49,089 nt of DNA from the NCBI GenBank assembly GCA_030648205.1, contig JAUSIH010000029.1, positions 1 through 49,089 of the forward strand, in the 5' to 3' direction. The DNA comes from Dehalococcoidia bacterium. Lineage in GTDB: Bacteria > Chloroflexota > Dehalococcoidia > JAUSIH01. Shown piece after piece: positions 7,810 through 13,986 of the stretch. The position numbers and the translations under genes were made by a program. The first letter of the stretch is position 1. Each line of letters opens with the position of its first letter. Below the pieces are notes generated by a model, which was not told the DNA's origin, did not search any database, and was given only the letters and a program-made list of their open reading frames with translations.

Positions 7810-8067
7810 CTACCAGGAAACGACGCGGTCGTGCTCGAACATCATCCGGACAATAGCGTCGTAGTCCACGGTGGGGTAGGCGCAATGCCCGCCCCTGGCG
7901 CGGACGTCGTCGGCGCAGGCGGAGACGGGGCCGGGAAACGCGGGCCGGGCCAGCACGGCGTCGTGGAGGAGCATCAGCGCCACATCATGGCCCTGCTCCC
8001 GCTGGGCGCACGCGGTCTCAACAGCGCGGGCGTCGTCCAGAGAGCGGAGGATGTGCAGAATGCGCAT
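7810..8067 (-). CDS. DsrH/TusB-like sulfur relay protein
   Basis: This 85-residue protein resembles TusB/DsrH, the small subunit of the DsrEFH/TusBCD sulfur-transfer hexamer. It starts MRILHILRS and ends VDYDAIVRMMFEHDRVVSW, which matches the family's closing pattern (Asp-Tyr, Val/Ile-Arg, His, Trp). It directly follows DsrF- and DsrE-like genes in the order DsrE-DsrF-DsrH. TusB itself carries no catalytic cysteine. It is the last clear gene of the sulfur-relay run. Confidence 0.75.
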   Translation of the reverse strand: MRILHILRSLDDARAVETACAQREQGHDVALMLLHDAVLARPAFPGPVSACADDVRARGGHCAYPTVDYDAIVRMMFEHDRVVSW

Positions 8068-8070
8068 GGC

Positions 8071-8439
8071 CTAGAACACAATCACGGCGTCGGCTGCGGC
8101 GACTTCCTCGGCCACCTGCCGCGCGGGAATCACCTGCACGCCAGGAAGGATGTCGGCGGCGGGGATGCCGTAGCGCTCCAGGGACTCGCGCTCCACCAGC
8201 ACCCGGTGCTTCAGGAACCGCAGCATCTCGATGTGCTTCTTGATGGTGGGGGCCTCAATAGCCTCCGGCGCCAGAGGGACGCTCAGCCACGCCGCCTGGT
8301 CCAGCAGGAGCACGGTGATGTCCAACGGTGCGAGGACCAGCCCGACGCTCTGACGCAGGCCTTCCGAAGCCATGACGGAGTTCAAGGGAGTGCGCCGCAC
8401 CACGACGGCCACCCGCTTGTGCGGCTTCTTGTCAGCCAA
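8071..8439 (-). CDS. DsrF/TusC-like sulfur relay protein
   Basis: This 122-residue protein of the DsrE/F superfamily has the pattern VAVVVRRTPLNSVMASEGLR, a hydrophobic VGLVLAPLDITVLLL strand, and the C-terminal ADAVIVF strand. The start is TTG at 8439, overlapping the end of the DsrE-like gene by 8 bp, which indicates tight coupling. It contains no cysteine, in keeping with a structural TusC-like role in a heterohexamer with its two neighbours. Confidence 0.75.
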   Translation of the reverse strand: MADKKPHKRVAVVVRRTPLNSVMASEGLRQSVGLVLAPLDITVLLLDQAAWLSVPLAPEAIEAPTIKKHIEMLRFLKHRVLVERESLERYGIPAADILPGVQVIPARQVAEEVAAADAVIVF

Positions 8440-8728
8440 GGACGATCACCCGGTCCGCCCAATAGACCGTTTCCGCCCAGTCGTTCTGGCCGCCGAAGAG
8501 GATTCCCTCCGTCCGAGGCACGCCCCATGAGTGCGCGTTGTAGGCGCAGATGGCTACGGGGCGGTCAGGCACGGAGAGGTCTTTGAGCTGGGCAAGCTGG
8601 AAGACAGCGTGGTCCATGGCGAAGATTCTGACCTCGTGCCCCTGGCGGCGCGCAGCCTCCACCAGCTTGCGCAGGGTGCGCAAGTCCTCGGAGCCGGCGC
8701 CGCTGGTAATCTCTATGCCCAGCTTCAT
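8432..8728 (-). CDS. DsrE/TusD-like sulfur relay protein
   Basis: This 98-residue DsrE-fold protein begins MKLGIEITSGAGSEDLRTL and ends WADRVIVLG. The cysteine in VAICAYNAHSWG lies where TusD/DsrE carries its persulfide-bearing Cys, so it is the likely sulfur acceptor of the three-protein set. It is shorter than the roughly 130 residues usual for TusD. The ATG at 8728 follows a TusA gene by 11 bp. Confidence 0.75.
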   Translation of the reverse strand: MKLGIEITSGAGSEDLRTLRKLVEAARRQGHEVRIFAMDHAVFQLAQLKDLSVPDRPVAICAYNAHSWGVPRTEGILFGGQNDWAETVYWADRVIVLG

Positions 8729-8739
8729 GGGTGCTGACG

Positions 8740-8991
8740 CTACGCCTTGCGGACCGTCACCGTCCAGTCGGTGGCGTTGACCTGCTTGACGCCCAGCACC
8801 TCATGGCCCTCACCGGAGAGGCTTCGCGGGACGTTTTCAACAGCGGGCAGGTGGTCCAGGATGACACGGAGCACCTGGCCCGACTCCAGGTCCTCGATGG
8901 CGAGCTTGGACTTGACGAAGGTGTACGGGCACACCTCGCCCTTCAGGTCAATCTCCTGGTCAATTTTCACGTCTGTTTTTGTCTGGGCCAT
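8740..8991 (-). CDS. tusA: TusA-family sulfur carrier (third copy)
   Basis: This is an 83-residue SirA/TusA fold with the signature LKGEVCPYTFVKSKLAI, in which Cys-Pro carries the persulfide. The mid-protein stretch LRVILDHLPAVENVPRSL fits the family. The N-terminal extension (about 10 residues) is longer than in the other two copies of this operon. It lies 9 bp after the DsrE3-like gene and before the DsrEFH set, so it probably hands sulfur between them. Confidence 0.9.
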   Translation of the reverse strand: MAQTKTDVKIDQEIDLKGEVCPYTFVKSKLAIEDLESGQVLRVILDHLPAVENVPRSLSGEGHEVLGVKQVNATDWTVTVRKA

Positions 8992-9000
8992 GTGCTTCTC

Positions 9001-9543
9001 CTAGACGAAGAGTGTCACCTGCGCCTTGGAGGCGTACTCCAGGAAGGCGGCTGCCCCTTGCATCTCCACGCCGTCCAGCAACTCTTCCTTCTTGACTCCC
9101 ATGATGCCCATGGTCGTAGTGCACGCGATGAGCCGGACGTTGAGCTGCCGCGACAGCGCCAGGAACTCGCCGATGGTGGGTATCTTCTGCTTTCGCATCA
9201 TGCTGTTCATCACCCACGTGGCCGCGGCGGTCGCGCCGGGGATGGCGCCCAGGATGTTGGGCACGGGCAGGGGCGCCGCCGGGTTGCCCAGGGGCGCCAC
9301 CTGCAGCCTGTTGTGCTTGCTCTTCTTCAGGATGTCCAGGCCGTAGAAGGTGAAGAAGACCCCGGCCTCCATCCCCATGGCCGCCGCCGTCGTCGCCAGG
9401 ATGAGCGGCGGGTAGGCCATGTCCAGCGTCCCCTTGGACGCGACTATTGCCAGACGTTTGACATCCGTCGCTTTGTGCGACTCCGCGTGCAGCCGGTTGA
9501 AGGTCTGCGCGTCCAGGACTACCTTCTCCGCGAGTGTGGTCAT
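9001..9543 (-). CDS. DsrE3-like (COG2210-type) sulfurtransferase
   Basis: This 180-residue protein belongs to the DsrE/DsrF/DrsH-like group often annotated as 'peroxiredoxin family'. Family features are LAIVASKGTLDMAYPPLILA, FFTFYGLDILKK, and the cysteine in LIACTTTMGIMGVKKEEL, the proposed persulfide site. In sulfur oxidisers such proteins occur with rhodanese and TusA and pass sulfane sulfur along, which is the arrangement here. The ATG at 9543 follows GGGAGGG and overlaps the TusA stop (ATGA), so the two are coupled. Confidence 0.87.
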   Translation of the reverse strand: MTTLAEKVVLDAQTFNRLHAESHKATDVKRLAIVASKGTLDMAYPPLILATTAAAMGMEAGVFFTFYGLDILKKSKHNRLQVAPLGNPAAPLPVPNILGAIPGATAAATWVMNSMMRKQKIPTIGEFLALSRQLNVRLIACTTTMGIMGVKKEELLDGVEMQGAAAFLEYASKAQVTLFV

Positions 9544-9788
9544 GCTCCCTCCCCTTTTTGAAGCCAGTACGTGTACGTACCCTTCTCGCTCCGCGCCTCC
9601 AGCAGCTTGTGCCCCTGCGCCCGCGCGAAGGCGGGCATGTCGTCGCACGACGCGACGTCCGTTGCAATCACCTTGATGATCTGGCCCAGGCTGAGCTTGT
9701 CCAGGGCCAGGCGCGTCTTAATCACCGGCATCGGGCACAGCTCGCCCGTCACGTCCAGGACTTGGGCCTCCTGATAGGTTGTCGCCAT
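9540..9788 (-). CDS. tusA: TusA-family sulfur carrier (second copy)
   Basis: This is an 82-residue TusA fold with VTGELCPMPVIKTRLALDKL, the classical CPxP sulfur-carrier motif, followed by ASCDDMPAFARAQGH. Its stop overlaps the ATG of the DsrE3-like gene. It lies 21 bp after the rhodanese lipoprotein gene, which fits a route from rhodanese through TusA to DsrE3. Confidence 0.92.
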   Translation of the reverse strand: MATTYQEAQVLDVTGELCPMPVIKTRLALDKLSLGQIIKVIATDVASCDDMPAFARAQGHKLLEARSEKGTYTYWLQKGEGA

Positions 9789-9809: not shown

Positions 9810-10817
9810 CTAGGCCGCGGGCTTCTCAATGGGCGTGGCCTGGTCGTTGCCCCAGTCCTCCCAGGAGCCGTCGAAGTTGCGCACCTTGGTGTAGCCGAGC
9901 AGTTGATGGGTGAAATAGCCGTGGGCCGCCCGGACGCCGCTCTGGCAGAGCGTAATGATCTCCTTGTCTTTGGTCAAGCCCTGGGCCTCGTAGAGCTTCG
10001 CAATCTCGGCGGCGGGCTTGAAGACCGCGCCCGGGTCCGAGTTGGTCATGGCTGTCTCCCAGTTCACGTTCTTGGAGTCCGGGATATGTCCGCCACGGGC
10101 GGCGCGCACGTCCTTGCCCGCGTACTCGTCGGGTGTGCGGGTGTCGCAGACGCCTATGGCCAGGTTCTTCAGGTTCGCCAGGATGTACTCCTTAGTGGCG
10201 AGCTTGGAGCTGTCAGCCGTGGCGGTGTACTTCACCGGCGTCAGCTTCGGCACCTGCCGGGTGACATCGCGATTTTCCTTCTCCCACTTGGGATTGCCGC
10301 CATTGAGGATGCTGATCTTCTTGTGCCCATAGTAGTCTAGCACGAAGTAGGCGCGGGCCGCCGACAGGCTGCGCTGGTCGTCGTACAACACGATGCGGGC
10401 GTCGTTGCCGATGCCGGCGCTGCCCAGCAGCTCCTCCAGCTTGTCTTGGGGAGGCAGCTCGTTGGTCAGCTTGCCGACTGTCACGTTCATGGTTCCGCTG
10501 GGGATGCTGATAGCGTTGGGCAGGTGGCCCGCCGCGTACTTGTCCGCCGGGCGCACGTCCACGATGCGCAGGTCAGCGTCGTTCACGTGCTGCGCCAGCC
10601 AGCCGGTGCTCAGCAGCAACTCAGGGCGGGCGTAGCCCAGCGCCGCTATCTCCGGGTCAGCCGCGGGCGCGGCGGCCGGGGCAGGCTTCGCGGGCGCAAC
10701 GGCGGCAGGAGCGGCGGGCTGAGCGGGCGCGGGCGAGCACGCCGCGACCAGCAGCGTAGCGGCCAGGCCAACCACGACCAGGGCCCTATGTGAAAGCCAG
10801 ATAGGCAGCATTCTCAT
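9810..10817 (-). CDS. Two-domain rhodanese (thiosulfate sulfurtransferase) lipoprotein
   Basis: This exported sulfurtransferase has 335 residues from the ATG at 10817, chosen because AGGAGG lies 9 nt upstream. It has a signal peptide with lipobox LLVAAC near residue 27, then an Ala/Pro-rich linker, then two rhodanese domains. The first has DVRPADKYAAGHLPNA and no active-site Cys. The second has DTRTPDEYAG and the active site TLCQSGVRAAHG. It would take sulfane sulfur from thiosulfate outside the membrane. The TusA genes on both sides and the YedE-type transporter suggest sulfur capture and import. Confidence 0.92.
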   Translation of the reverse strand: MRMLPIWLSHRALVVVGLAATLLVAACSPAPAQPAAPAAVAPAKPAPAAAPAADPEIAALGYARPELLLSTGWLAQHVNDADLRIVDVRPADKYAAGHLPNAISIPSGTMNVTVGKLTNELPPQDKLEELLGSAGIGNDARIVLYDDQRSLSAARAYFVLDYYGHKKISILNGGNPKWEKENRDVTRQVPKLTPVKYTATADSSKLATKEYILANLKNLAIGVCDTRTPDEYAGKDVRAARGGHIPDSKNVNWETAMTNSDPGAVFKPAAEIAKLYEAQGLTKDKEIITLCQSGVRAAHGYFTHQLLGYTKVRNFDGSWEDWGNDQATPIEKPAA

Positions 10818-10868
10818 GGTGTTGTTCCTCCTGTTATCCATTCTCTTTATGTAGCGTTCGACTTTTGT

Positions 10869-11090
10869 CTAGGACGCCTGCCGGGCCAGGTGAATACACC
10901 ACTCGCCCGGTCGGGTCTCCTGGATGCGCGCGGTCCACCCGAGCCGCGCCGCCTGGGTGGGAACCGTCTCCAGCGAAGGCGGATGATCGGTGATGAGCTC
11001 TATGCTCTCACCGCTCTTCGCTTTCCGCATCGCCTCCACCGCCTTGATTTGCGGGTACGGGCAGATTTCGCCCCGCACGTCAATCTTCAT
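10869..11090 (-). CDS. tusA: TusA-family sulfur carrier (first copy, next to the transporter)
   Basis: This is a 73-residue TusA fold: MKIDVRGEICPYPQIKAVEA with the CPxP motif, and a DHPPSLETVPTQAARLGW mid-section. The start is ATG 11090 behind AGGAGG. It lies 29 bp after the YedE/TsuA-type gene. Such pairs are known, with TusA receiving the imported sulfur species. Confidence 0.92.
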   Translation of the reverse strand: MKIDVRGEICPYPQIKAVEAMRKAKSGESIELITDHPPSLETVPTQAARLGWTARIQETRPGEWCIHLARQAS

Positions 11091-11119
11091 GCGCCTATGC
11101 CTCCTGCCATCTCCTACCG

Positions 11120-12355
11120 CTAGCTGATGCGGCGGATAACCTGTATGCCGATCAATGCTCCCACGGCCAGGCTGGCGCCGAAGAACCAGCCGTTGAGTCC
11201 GAGGGATGGAATAGCGGAGAAAAAGCCGCCCAGGGTGCACCCCGCCGCCAGGCCCGCGCCGTAGCCCATGAGGATGCCTCCACCGAAGGACTGCCCGTAG
11301 CGGCGCGCCTGCCGGGGCACGCGCAGCCGGAACTCACCCGCCAGGACGGAGGCCGCGAACGACCCGAGGATGATGCCCCCGTTGATCATCAGCCCCCAGG
11401 TCAGCAAGGTCGGCGACGCGTCGGTGACGGCGCAGGGTCCCACGCCTCCCGCGTGCGCCGGAGGCGGCAGGCCGATCAGGTTCAGGACCCCCTCGCTCCA
11501 CCGGCCCACCTCGTTCACCACGCCCACGGGCCGCTCAAACAGGTAAAACATGACGTTCAGGCCGCCCAGGGCGACGCCGCCCACGATGGCCGGCCAGCCC
11601 TTGACGAACACGGAGCGCAGCAGCGAGCGCAGCTTCGCGGAGAAGCCAGCGGCGTCCTCCTGTGGGGACGCTGGGCGCACGATGGCGAAGGCGCTGGCGC
11701 GAGACTCTATCCATATGATGAAGCTGGCGGCAGCCGCCAGCACGAGCAAGACAAGGACCACGGCGCCGCCCCAGCCCAGGGTGGGCGGAAGCCAGACCAG
11801 CGGCTGACGGGAGATGTAGTTCTCCCACCACCAGTTCCAGGTGAAGTGGATGAAGGCCAGGCCGACCATCATGCCGCCGACCGCCACCAGCGAGCCAACG
11901 TATCCCTCGCCTATGCGGTAAAGGCTGCCGGAGGTGCACCCGCCAGCCACCACCATGCCGACGCCAAACAGCACGCCGCCCAGCAGCAGGTGCAGGCCCA
12001 GGGGCACCACGCCCGCGTTGAACGGCAGGCGGCCCGCCGCCAGGCTGGGCGTGAGGTTGTACTGAACCAGCGCGAAGCCGACGGTGGCAATAGCCAGCCC
12101 GCCCAGGACGGCCTTCATCACCCGGCCGTCCTGCAGGAGAAAGAGGTCGCGGAAGGCTGAGGCGAAGCAGAACCGGCTCCGCTGGAGTATGAACCCGAAG
12201 GTCACGCCGAAAGCCCAGAACACGGCCAGACGCGAGTCAACCGCCGCCATGGCCAAGCCAATGGCGATGAGTAAGGCTACCACCAGCGCACGAGCAACAA
12301 CCCCGCGCAGGTCCGGGACCGCCTGTTTCGCCTGGCCCACTGTTACCGTCGTCAA
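11120..12355 (-). CDS. YeeE/YedE (TsuA)-type sulfur-compound transporter
   Basis: This polytopic membrane protein (411 residues, about ten hydrophobic segments) belongs to the YeeE/YedE family, whose studied members import thiosulfate. Family motifs are RSRFCFASAFRD (near 65), VVAGGCTSGSLYRIGEGY (near 138), and a second half with GGILMGYGAGLAAGCTLGG. Cys residues in these motifs line the conduction path in the family. The frame extends to a TTG at 12376, but the TTG at 12355 has AGAGG at a suitable distance. It heads the sulfur-relay operon. YedE-like proteins also occur in selenium-using bacteria, so selenium handling is an alternative. Confidence 0.88.
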   Translation of the reverse strand: MTTVTVGQAKQAVPDLRGVVARALVVALLIAIGLAMAAVDSRLAVFWAFGVTFGFILQRSRFCFASAFRDLFLLQDGRVMKAVLGGLAIATVGFALVQYNLTPSLAAGRLPFNAGVVPLGLHLLLGGVLFGVGMVVAGGCTSGSLYRIGEGYVGSLVAVGGMMVGLAFIHFTWNWWWENYISRQPLVWLPPTLGWGGAVVLVLLVLAAAASFIIWIESRASAFAIVRPASPQEDAAGFSAKLRSLLRSVFVKGWPAIVGGVALGGLNVMFYLFERPVGVVNEVGRWSEGVLNLIGLPPPAHAGGVGPCAVTDASPTLLTWGLMINGGIILGSFAASVLAGEFRLRVPRQARRYGQSFGGGILMGYGAGLAAGCTLGGFFSAIPSLGLNGWFFGASLAVGALIGIQVIRRIS

Positions 12356-12490
12356 CGTTGTCTGCCTCTGTATCAACTAATTAGATTTGCATCATCTAGT
12401 CATGCTATCATTATCGTCAATAAGGAAATCGCGCTAGGCAACTAATCGTATTGCACCAGCCCGATGTCCCTCCTGATTTTTCCTCCGCCG

Positions 12491-12523
12491 AATAAAAAAC
12501 CCCACGGCTCAAAGCTCGTGGGG
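12491..12523 (-). terminator. Intrinsic terminator in the leader of the sulfur-relay operon
   Basis: The minus strand forms CCCCACG-A-GCU/UUG/AGC-CGUGGGG (7 bp, a bulged A, 3 bp, tri-loop), followed at once by UUUUUUAUU. It faces the same way as the operon, lies between the leader promoter and the first gene, and would stop transcription before yedE unless the hairpin is prevented. Confidence 0.8.
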
Positions 12524-12541
12524 CGCATTGCTCTGTATCCG

Positions 12542-12557
12542 CGGGGCGTACGCCCCG
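12542..12557 (-). promoter_or_regulatory. Palindrome able to compete with the leader terminator
   Basis: This is a perfect 16-nt palindrome, CGGGGCGTACGCCCCG. On the transcript its GGGGCG arm (12556-12551) can pair locally with CGCCCC or, alternatively, with the CGCCCC at 12525-12520 that overlaps the 5' arm of the terminator. The two pairings exclude each other, as in attenuators. That it works this way is an inference. Confidence 0.5.
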
Positions 12558-12572
12558 GCACGGGACGCCGCG

Positions 12573-12623
12573 CTACCGCTCAGCCCCTATGTGCCACGTA
12601 CAGGCGCACATCACACATATCAT
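12573..12623 (-). CDS. Cysteine-rich 16-codon leader ORF
   Basis: The ORF reads ATG then MICVMCACTWHIGAER and a TAG stop, with cysteine codons at positions 3, 6 and 8. Its ATG lies 10 nt after the -10 hexamer, so the message would be almost leaderless. It precedes a competing palindrome, an intrinsic terminator and a sulfur-import operon. Cys-rich leader peptides are known from mycobacteria as cysteine-responsive attenuators. Function here is inferred from this layout. It has no homologue that I recognise. Confidence 0.5.
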   Translation of the reverse strand: MICVMCACTWHIGAER

Positions 12624-12633
12624 AACTTCTGGT

Positions 12634-12663
12634 AGTATAGGTTGAAATCGGGCGCAATGTCAA
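12634..12663 (-). promoter_or_regulatory. Consensus promoter for the sulfur-relay leader
   Basis: The minus strand has a perfect -35 TTGACA (12663-12658), an 18-bp spacer and a -10 TATACT (12639-12634). It is one of the best housekeeping-type promoters in the window. Transcription would begin about 12627, just before the Cys-rich ORF. Confidence 0.75.
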
Positions 12664-12726
12664 GCGGAGTGCAAGCGACGCCCCGCCTGGCGTCAGGCGC
12701 AAGTGACTATGTGAAAGGGGTTGCCG

Positions 12727-13986
12727 ATGCCGCAGCGGAAAAAGCGCGAGATGACGTCCTTTGAGGAGGTCTCCCACTTCTTTGACCAGGCCGCTGACCA
12801 ACTGAATATCAAGGACGAACTGCGGGACATCATGCGCAGCTCGTACCGCGAGGTGCGCGTGCAGTTGCCCGTTCGCATGGACGATGGCTCCATCAAGGTC
12901 TTCGTGGGCTACCGCATCCAGCACAACGGCGCGCGGGGACCGTACAAAGGGGGATTGCGCTATCATCCGGAGGCGGACCTGGACGAGGTGCGCGCCCTGG
13001 CCGCGCTGATGACCTGGAAGACGGCCGTCGTCGGCCTGCCCTACGGCGGCTCCAAGGGCGGCGTCCAATGTGATCCCGCGTCGCTGAGCCAGATGGAGCT
13101 GAACAAGCTGACGCGCCGGTACACTCAGAGCATCGCCCACATCCTGGGGCCGAGCCGGGACATTCCCGCTCCTGACCTGGGAACGAACGCGCAGGTCATG
13201 GCCTGGATGATGGACGCCTACGGCCAGCTCCACGGGTACACCCCCGCGGTCGTCACGGGCAAGCCGGTCGAGCTGGGCGGCTCCTACGGTCGGGACGCGG
13301 CGACGGGCCGCGGCCTGGTCTACGTGCTGGCTGAGGCGGCGCACGCGCTCAAGATGGACCTCAAGGGCGCCAGGGTGGCAGTCCAAGGCTTCGGCAACGT
13401 CGGCTCGTGGACGGCGCGGCTCATCGGCGAGCTGGGCTGCAAGGTCATCGCGGTCAGTGATGTGAAGAGCGGCGTGGTGAACGAGCGCGGGCTGGACATA
13501 TCGCGCCTCATGGACCACAACAAGCAGGCGGGGACTCTCGCGGGCTTCCGCGGGGGCGAAGCGCTCACCAACGATGAGCTTCTGGCCCTGAACTGCGACT
13601 TGCTCATTCCCGCGGCCATTGGCAACGTCCTGCACGCGGGCAACGCGGGAAAGGTGCAGGCCAAGGTCGTGGTGGAGGGCGCCAACCATCCCACGACCCA
13701 TGACGCGGACGACATTCTCGAGGACCGGGGCGTCATGGTGCTGCCGGACATCCTGGTCAACGCGGGCGGAGTGACGGTCTCCTACTTTGAGTGGACGCAG
13801 AATATCCAGGAGTTCCGCTGGGAAGAGGACAGGGTCAACCACGAACTGCAGAAGGTGATGAGCAGGGCCTTCTGGAACGTCTGGGAGAGGGCGCAGTTCG
13901 CCCATGTGCCGCTGCGGTTGGCGGCCTTCATGGTGGGCGTGGAGCGCGTCGCACGCGCCATCGAGCTGCGCGGCTTCGTCGTGTAA
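12727..13986 (+). CDS. gdhA: Glutamate dehydrogenase (Glu/Leu/Phe/Val family)
   Basis: This NAD(P)-dependent enzyme interconverts glutamate and 2-oxoglutarate plus ammonia. It has 419 residues. Substrate-binding motifs are GPYKGGLRYHP, KTAVVGLPYGGSKGG (catalytic Lys) and PAPDLGTNAQVMAW. The dinucleotide-binding motif is VQGFGNVGSWTA near 225, and the C-terminal hinge reads NAGGVTVSYFEWTQN. I chose the ATG at 12727 because AAAGGGG lies 6 nt upstream. A TTG at 12721 touches that site. The gene diverges from the sulfur-relay operon and stands alone. Confidence 0.95.
   Translation: MPQRKKREMTSFEEVSHFFDQAADQLNIKDELRDIMRSSYREVRVQLPVRMDDGSIKVFVGYRIQHNGARGPYKGGLRYHPEADLDEVRALAALMTWKTAVVGLPYGGSKGGVQCDPASLSQMELNKLTRRYTQSIAHILGPSRDIPAPDLGTNAQVMAWMMDAYGQLHGYTPAVVTGKPVELGGSYGRDAATGRGLVYVLAEAAHALKMDLKGARVAVQGFGNVGSWTARLIGELGCKVIAVSDVKSGVVNERGLDISRLMDHNKQAGTLAGFRGGEALTNDELLALNCDLLIPAAIGNVLHAGNAGKVQAKVVVEGANHPTTHDADDILEDRGVMVLPDILVNAGGVTVSYFEWTQNIQEFRWEEDRVNHELQKVMSRAFWNVWERAQFAHVPLRLAAFMVGVERVARAIELRGFVV

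Follow-up and report, generated by a model that had tools for sequence, protein, structure and literature searches.

Classical attenuators of the trp/his type combine regulatory codons and a U-tailed terminator with an antiterminator close to where the leader ORF ends. Compared with these, the leader considered here has cysteine codons, a near-leaderless start and a sulfur-import operon downstream.

For cysteine, Cys-rich leader peptides have been predicted upstream of actinobacterial cys operons, where, as far as the cited account goes, a conserved terminator hairpin was not found (PMC1262725). Mycobacterial Cys-rich leader peptides are backed by ribosome profiling (PMC4633059), the leaderless polycysteine uORFs of mycobacteria have been described as cysteine-responsive (Canestrari et al. 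2020, as cited in PMC9094748), a later paper names the control by actinobacterial polycysteine uORFs translational (PMC13236596), and leaderless genes have also been surveyed across bacteria (PMC3160421). The window, i.e., the whole stretch of 49,089 nt analysed here from a Dehalococcoidia bacterium, resembles the mycobacterial systems, as those sources present them, in having a leaderless or near-leaderless Cys-rich uORF before sulfur or cysteine genes, but differs in its intrinsic terminator (with antiterminators in relatives), its phylum and the genes concerned. The run of Cys near the uORF end, a mycobacterial trait, is absent in the window and occurs in several relatives.

A short Cys-codon ORF with an intrinsic terminator behind it makes up the uORFC-8-2 motif before cysS in Rhodobacterales, for which Cys-tRNA attenuation has been proposed (PMC8632094). 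The window shares this succession of short Cys-codon ORF and intrinsic terminator, whereas uORFC-8-2 has tandem Cys at codons 14–15, lies before cysS in alphaproteobacteria and is described in that account without mention of leaderless translation; in the window, there is neither tandem Cys at about codons 14–15 nor cysS downstream. Our literature searches turned up cysteine attenuators in actinobacteria and Rhodobacterales only, none for yedE or Chloroflexota, and nothing on sulfur-uptake control in uncultured Chloroflexota, so that the claim of the initial annotation that no such control had been described for this operon in Chloroflexota agrees with the searched literature. Ribosome-mediated cysteine attenuation is thus known, and it is the combination of a near-leaderless uORF and an intrinsic terminator before a sulfur-import operon that is most likely new.

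The leader and its downstream sulfur operon

The leader lies on the minus strand within a 371-nt intergenic stretch between yedE and a divergent glutamate dehydrogenase gene. Its elements and the neighbouring genes are the following:

12721–13986, plus strand: glutamate dehydrogenase gene, divergent from yedE
12634–12663, minus strand: sigma-70-type promoter TTGACA-18-TATACT, 11/12 consensus (-35 at 12663–12658, spacer of 18 nt, -10 at 12639–12634)
12573–12623, minus strand: predicted near-leaderless uORF, MICVMCACTWHIGAER and stop, read from the sequence (ATG at 12623, TAG at 12573; Cys codons 3, 6 and 8 at 12617–12615, 12608–12606 and 12602–12600)
12583–12587, minus strand: GGGGC (nt 37–41) at the end of the uORF, proposed from ribosome-masked folding as the antiterminator 5′ strand that would pair with GCCCC of the terminator arm at a Cys8 stall
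12542–12557, minus strand: perfect 16-nt palindrome CGGGGCGTACGCCCCG, from sequence and folding
12494–12524, minus strand: intrinsic terminator GCCCCACGAGCTTTGAGCCGTGGGG with TTTTTT, arms CCCCACG...CGTGGGG, -15.7 to -17.7 kcal/mol
12391–12420, minus strand: weak promoter-like site TTGACG-18-GATGAT between terminator and yedE, 9/12, a possible independent start
11120–12355, minus strand: yedE/tsuA-type sulfur (thiosulfate) transporter, TTG start (PF04143, 8.8e-64; PDB 6leo YeeE, 1.5e-26)
10869–11120, minus strand: TusA (PF01206)
9810–10841, minus strand: two-domain rhodanese (PF00581, two stretches)
9540–9788, minus strand: TusA (PF01206)
9001–9648, minus strand: DsrE_2 family protein (PF13686), open frame whose true start is probably further in
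8740–8991, minus strand: TusA (PF01206)
8432–8728, minus strand: DsrE-like (PF02635)
8071–8439, minus strand: DsrE/TusC-like (PF02635; TIGR03010 below cut-off)
7810–8067, minus strand: TusB-like (TIGR03011 below cut-off; no Pfam family)

The initial annotation had read from these letters a consensus promoter, an almost leaderless 16-codon ORF with three Cys, a perfect 16-nt palindrome and an intrinsic terminator with a U run (six T after the hairpin), all aimed at a YedE-TusA-rhodanese-DsrE operon; every element was found again at the positions listed, and the genes named there have Pfam matches downstream. A simple scanner for terminators missed this one; an outer loop of more than 8 nt is the probable reason. 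The putative uORF starts 10 nt past the -10 box, which would place it among near-leaderless ORFs in the mycobacterial sense; if transcription begins at the usual distance from the promoter, its 5′ leader would measure about 3–5 nt. The three Cys codons are separated among 16 codons, with no Cys run.

Promoter sites of at least 11/12 number three in the 49-kb window, that of the leader among them, and a promoter this good 4–13 nt before an ATG has p=0.003 in shuffles. At least three Cys in six codons occur in 15 of the 1479 small ORFs of the window (~1%), and when the intergenic stretch was shuffled 1000 times, 39 of the shuffled versions contained a terminator of such strength. Promoter, Cys uORF and terminator are improbable together, although all of these measures were selected post hoc and their product can serve as a guide only. 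The palindrome could, according to folding, form a self-hairpin or pair through its 5′ half either with the upstream GCGUCCCG or with the terminator arm. It occurs once in the window at up to two mismatches; a genome-wide repeat was considered and rejected, as its 14-nt core has one exact copy in the genome and one-mismatch sites are no more frequent than in the backward control.

From the terminator hairpin to the yedE start the distance is 144 nt, and this unusually long gap (12490–12356) carries AGGAGG and then GTG CAA TAC GAT TAG. The yedE frame opens at 12376, with the best start at the TTG of 12355, preceded by GAGG. The RFCF, GGCTSG and AGCTLG motifs of this YedE align with the Cys motifs of the solved thiosulfate transporter YeeE (6leo); we infer its substrate, since none of the NCBIfam models reaches its cut-off. 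In E. coli, YeeE and the TusA-like YeeD import thiosulfate, a possible feed for cysteine synthesis according to the cited account (PMC11073785). A cysteine synthase gene lies directly upstream of yedE in the relatives G036, G024 and G073 and one frame apart in G015, and the G036 enzyme scores above the cut-off of the cysKM subfamily model. Thiosulfate uptake by YeeE and cysteine synthase next to yedE in relatives make cysteine-sensing control plausible, and the operon would serve cysteine synthesis.

As a separate observation, the YedE of families f62 and f78 contains one in-frame TGA in eight genomes (G335, G268, G112, G286, G237, G311, G360 and G274). At all seven loci inspected (L045, L049, L054, L066, L070, L072 and L074), the codon stands after PGT and before V in PGT-TGA-V...PGQLTWG, near the position of Cys315 in the window YedE frame, followed by a palindrome of SECIS-like look, GGTCAGTTGACC, which is exact in five of the seven and has one change in G237 and G274. 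The Dehalococcoidales/Dehalococcoidia loci L024 and L025 have one TGA each in YedE as well. The TGA-bearing proteins are possibly selenocysteine versions of YedE.

Equivalent leaders in related genomes

The window genome is the sole member of its order in the comparison set. Direct searches with the leader DNA gave short GC-rich chance matches only in 100 genomes; a plasmid collection gave no match. YedE relatives were gathered from overlapping sets of 60 genomes (18 with a match), 393 genomes of the class (63), 147 and 117 genomes of another order (22 and 15) and 400 genomes of the phylum (40). In total, 77 oriented loci were read, two of which were dropped (less than 200 nt upstream), and 75 were tested by the rule of an ORF 5–45 codons long that holds three or more Cys within six codons, then an intrinsic terminator.

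Such Cys ORFs were found in 10 of the 75 yedE upstream regions, and a terminator follows in nine, window included, as against means of 1.7 ORFs and 0.05 ORFs with terminator (largest 5 and 1) in 40 rounds of dinucleotide shuffles, and 2 of 1472 natural control tiles with both from the same loci. The nine (window, G326, G307, G200, G049, G014, G484, G404 and G480) belong to six families, and their Cys parts read CVMCAC, CCCCTC, CLRNCLCMRC, CCCC, CCCSC, CICCC, CCRACCC, CSCC and CMCCC. The Cys ORF is absent upstream of yedE at 65 of the 75 loci of the class, and none of the 23 yedE loci outside the class qualifies. Two of the 75 antisense controls matched (G479 and G497) and turned out to be Cys leaders of divergent tusA, namely MNNISSNLTTRGCCCMR in G497 and, by reading of the alignment, MIKLSSNQMNCCCCMR in G479, each ending at a stop. 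Between these sister species the CCC/CCCC run, terminator and antiterminator are kept and the amino end of the peptide has drifted.

The nine and three leaders added by hand, namely G440 and G036 (two Cys) and G497r (tusA), make up a set of 12. The uORF starts of G014, G200, G484 and G480 were picked by hand, and in G326 and G200 the late lone Cys was excluded as a stall site. Omitted were G059 (MQFCSLCSCG, without terminator), G381 (GCCRCC, far upstream) and G197/G362, whose ORF lies inside an apparent upstream coding frame. In G059 (L011), the MQFCSLCSCG... ORF stands 165 nt before yedE with no recognisable U-tailed terminator, and the short inverted repeat GAAGTTGACTGAGTAGCTCAACTTC that follows it is present in G151 too.

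The near-leaderless layout recurs among the relatives: in six of the 12 leaders (window (G000), G326, G014, G484, G440 and G497r), a promoter at p≤0.027 leaves 6–12 nt between the end of its -10 box and the start of the uORF, as in G326, which reads TTGACA-17-TATACT-10-ATG, then CCCCTC and the antiterminator GGCTGGGGTGTGG/CCACACCCCAGCC. The first gene lies 17–46 nt past the terminator hairpin in ten relatives, which makes a separate promoter unlikely there. The closest YedE is that of G036 (60%), whose leader ends in ...YVCFCTL and a stop. The expectation set out with the initial annotation, that Cys codons and hairpins should be kept while the rest drifts, holds for these equivalent leaders from other families of the class, in which the elements recur with matching geometry.

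By its sequence, the predicted device precedes tusA too and, rarely, cysK. The latter gene was found in 107 of 148 genomes, and a Cys leader stands upstream at two of the 47 cysK loci examined (G480 and G036), for which reason a general cysK regulon was rejected; the two cysK loci of the window genome have no Cys leader. The G480 leader (L141), MDICKTYTYKATCCCLCTPL with its stop, has a strong antiterminator and terminator with a switch of 11.6 kcal/mol (p=0.005). That of G036, with two Cys (p=0.08 and 0.23), has the layout nearest to the window's: MYNRTCACTY and a stop, GGGC, a nested hairpin and a GCCC terminator arm (p=0.23). Shortly before cysK in the window genome (G000:C49, L135) there is a strong G+C-rich hairpin, GTGTCCCGCCGCGGCGTCGCGGCGGGACAC, with neither U run nor Cys leader.

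Predicted switching and competing explanations

For the 12 leaders, RNA was folded up to the terminator 5′ arm. A ribosome was placed in turn on every clustered Cys codon and on the stop, all RNA as far as its leading edge was kept from pairing, and the energy needed to free the terminator arm served as the readout. The stalled-minus-stop cost beats shuffles in nine of the 12 (p≤0.04 each; Fisher's combined p for all 12, 1.5e-9), and it is not above shuffles in the window (p=0.49), G484 (0.14) and G036 (0.84, automatic hairpin). In G036 with a second terminator, picked by eye and given no shuffle test, the arm cost is 9.4 stalled and 1.3 at the stop. By a second measure, the switch exceeds 0.3 in 8/12 leaders. 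The candidate antiterminator strand starts 7–19 nt past the last Cys codon in 7/12, as expected, since at this spacing a stalled ribosome frees the strand and a terminating ribosome covers it. These models indicate that, in the equivalent leaders of relatives, antiterminator availability would depend on ribosome position.

In the window's own leader, the predicted switch has the right direction and is weak. Freeing the arm costs 1.6, 4.5 and 5.6 kcal/mol with the ribosome at Cys3, Cys6 and Cys8 versus 3.2 at the stop, which does not exceed shuffles (p=0.49; p=0.27 by the other measure). In the model, a ribosome at Cys8 leaves GGGG (nt 37–40) paired with the terminator CCCC (0.99), one at Cys6 or Cys3 mainly lets the palindrome GGGG pair with the arm (0.94 and 0.67), and one at the stop lets the palindrome fold on itself. 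GGGGC in the last uORF codons is accordingly proposed, from folding and by analogy, as the antiterminator 5′ strand at Cys8. The alternative pairing of GGGGCG with CGCCCC put forward in the initial annotation does exist as complementarity but, taken alone, is no better than in shuffles. In the model, the palindrome GGGG of this pairing holds the arm at Cys3 and Cys6, and at Cys8 GGGGC (nt 37–41) would act instead. The ribosome-free RNA behaves at the arm like the Cys8 case; with this, and with a switch no better than shuffles, the window has to be judged mainly by analogy.

The leader might also be no sensor at all: its promoter could be constitutive and its terminator leaky, or a former switch could have been lost, and the window antiterminator is indeed no better than shuffled sequence. 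This sensor-free reading is nonetheless distinctly unlikely, since late in transcription, with the transcript at nt 119–120, the arm stays held at 0.79 with the ribosome at Cys8, compared with 0.07–0.11 at the stop (0.40–0.23 at Cys6), which is the right direction, and the architecture agrees with that of the relatives. A stand-alone small RNA of ~130 nt, with a separate yedE promoter in the 144-nt gap and the Cys codons there by chance, is unlikely: promoter and terminator do bracket a stable RNA (z -2.56), and the long gap before yedE holds the weak promoter-like site at 12420–12391, but no Rfam family reaches its gathering score (best weak match 16.1 bits, with 49.5 required), similar DNA does not rise above noise in 100 genomes, the relatives of the same arrangement leave little or no space for a second promoter, and the Cys density of the uORF is rare. 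For a riboswitch or T-box as well, Rfam gave sub-threshold matches only for the leader.

Instead of reading Cys-tRNA supply through its codons, the leader peptide might respond to metal or redox state by way of its Cys side chains (CxxCxC...H), and CVMCAC with a later His in the window would suit this. We regard it as very improbable, as the relatives' CCCC, CICCC, CCCSC, CCCCTC, CSCC and CMCCC have no fixed spacing, which is expected of codons rather than of a binding motif, and the genes downstream are sulfur genes.

The window has a promoter, a short Cys-codon ORF and an intrinsic terminator before the first gene, as an attenuator would, and cysteine-sensing attenuation, as initially annotated, is upheld as the best reading by the equivalent leaders across the class. 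Counted against it are the weak switch of its own leader, the lack of close relatives, the 144-nt gap with a promoter-like site, only three Cys among 16 codons, the absence of a Cys ORF at most yedE loci of the class and at all 23 outside it, and the missing Cys leader at both cysK loci of the window genome. Judging from sequence, folding models and analogy, we consider it quite likely that the window leader is a ribosome-mediated transcription attenuator responsive to cysteine. In this scheme, RNA polymerase would start a few nt upstream of the uORF and a ribosome would load onto the near-leaderless AUG; with ample Cys-tRNA, the ribosome would reach the stop and mask the GGGGC at the uORF end, the terminator would form and transcription would halt before yedE. 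With scarce Cys-tRNA, the ribosome would stall at the Cys codons, GGGGC or the palindrome GGGG would pair with the terminator 5′ arm, and the terminator would fail to form in time, so that the sulfur-import and sulfur-relay genes would be transcribed. The transcription start, uORF translation, stalling and switch of this scheme are presumed.

More broadly, the balance leans towards a Cys-tRNA-sensing device of near-leaderless uORFs and intrinsic terminators that recurs across several orders of a single Chloroflexota class, chiefly upstream of yedE and sometimes of tusA or cysK, and that would tie thiosulfate/sulfane-sulfur import directly to Cys-tRNA charging. Its sequence signature could help to locate co-regulated sulfur genes. 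If this is true, cysteine attenuation extends to another phylum by way of an intrinsic-terminator mechanism, and the YedE-TusA-rhodanese operon would feed cysteine synthesis rather than energy metabolism in these cells.
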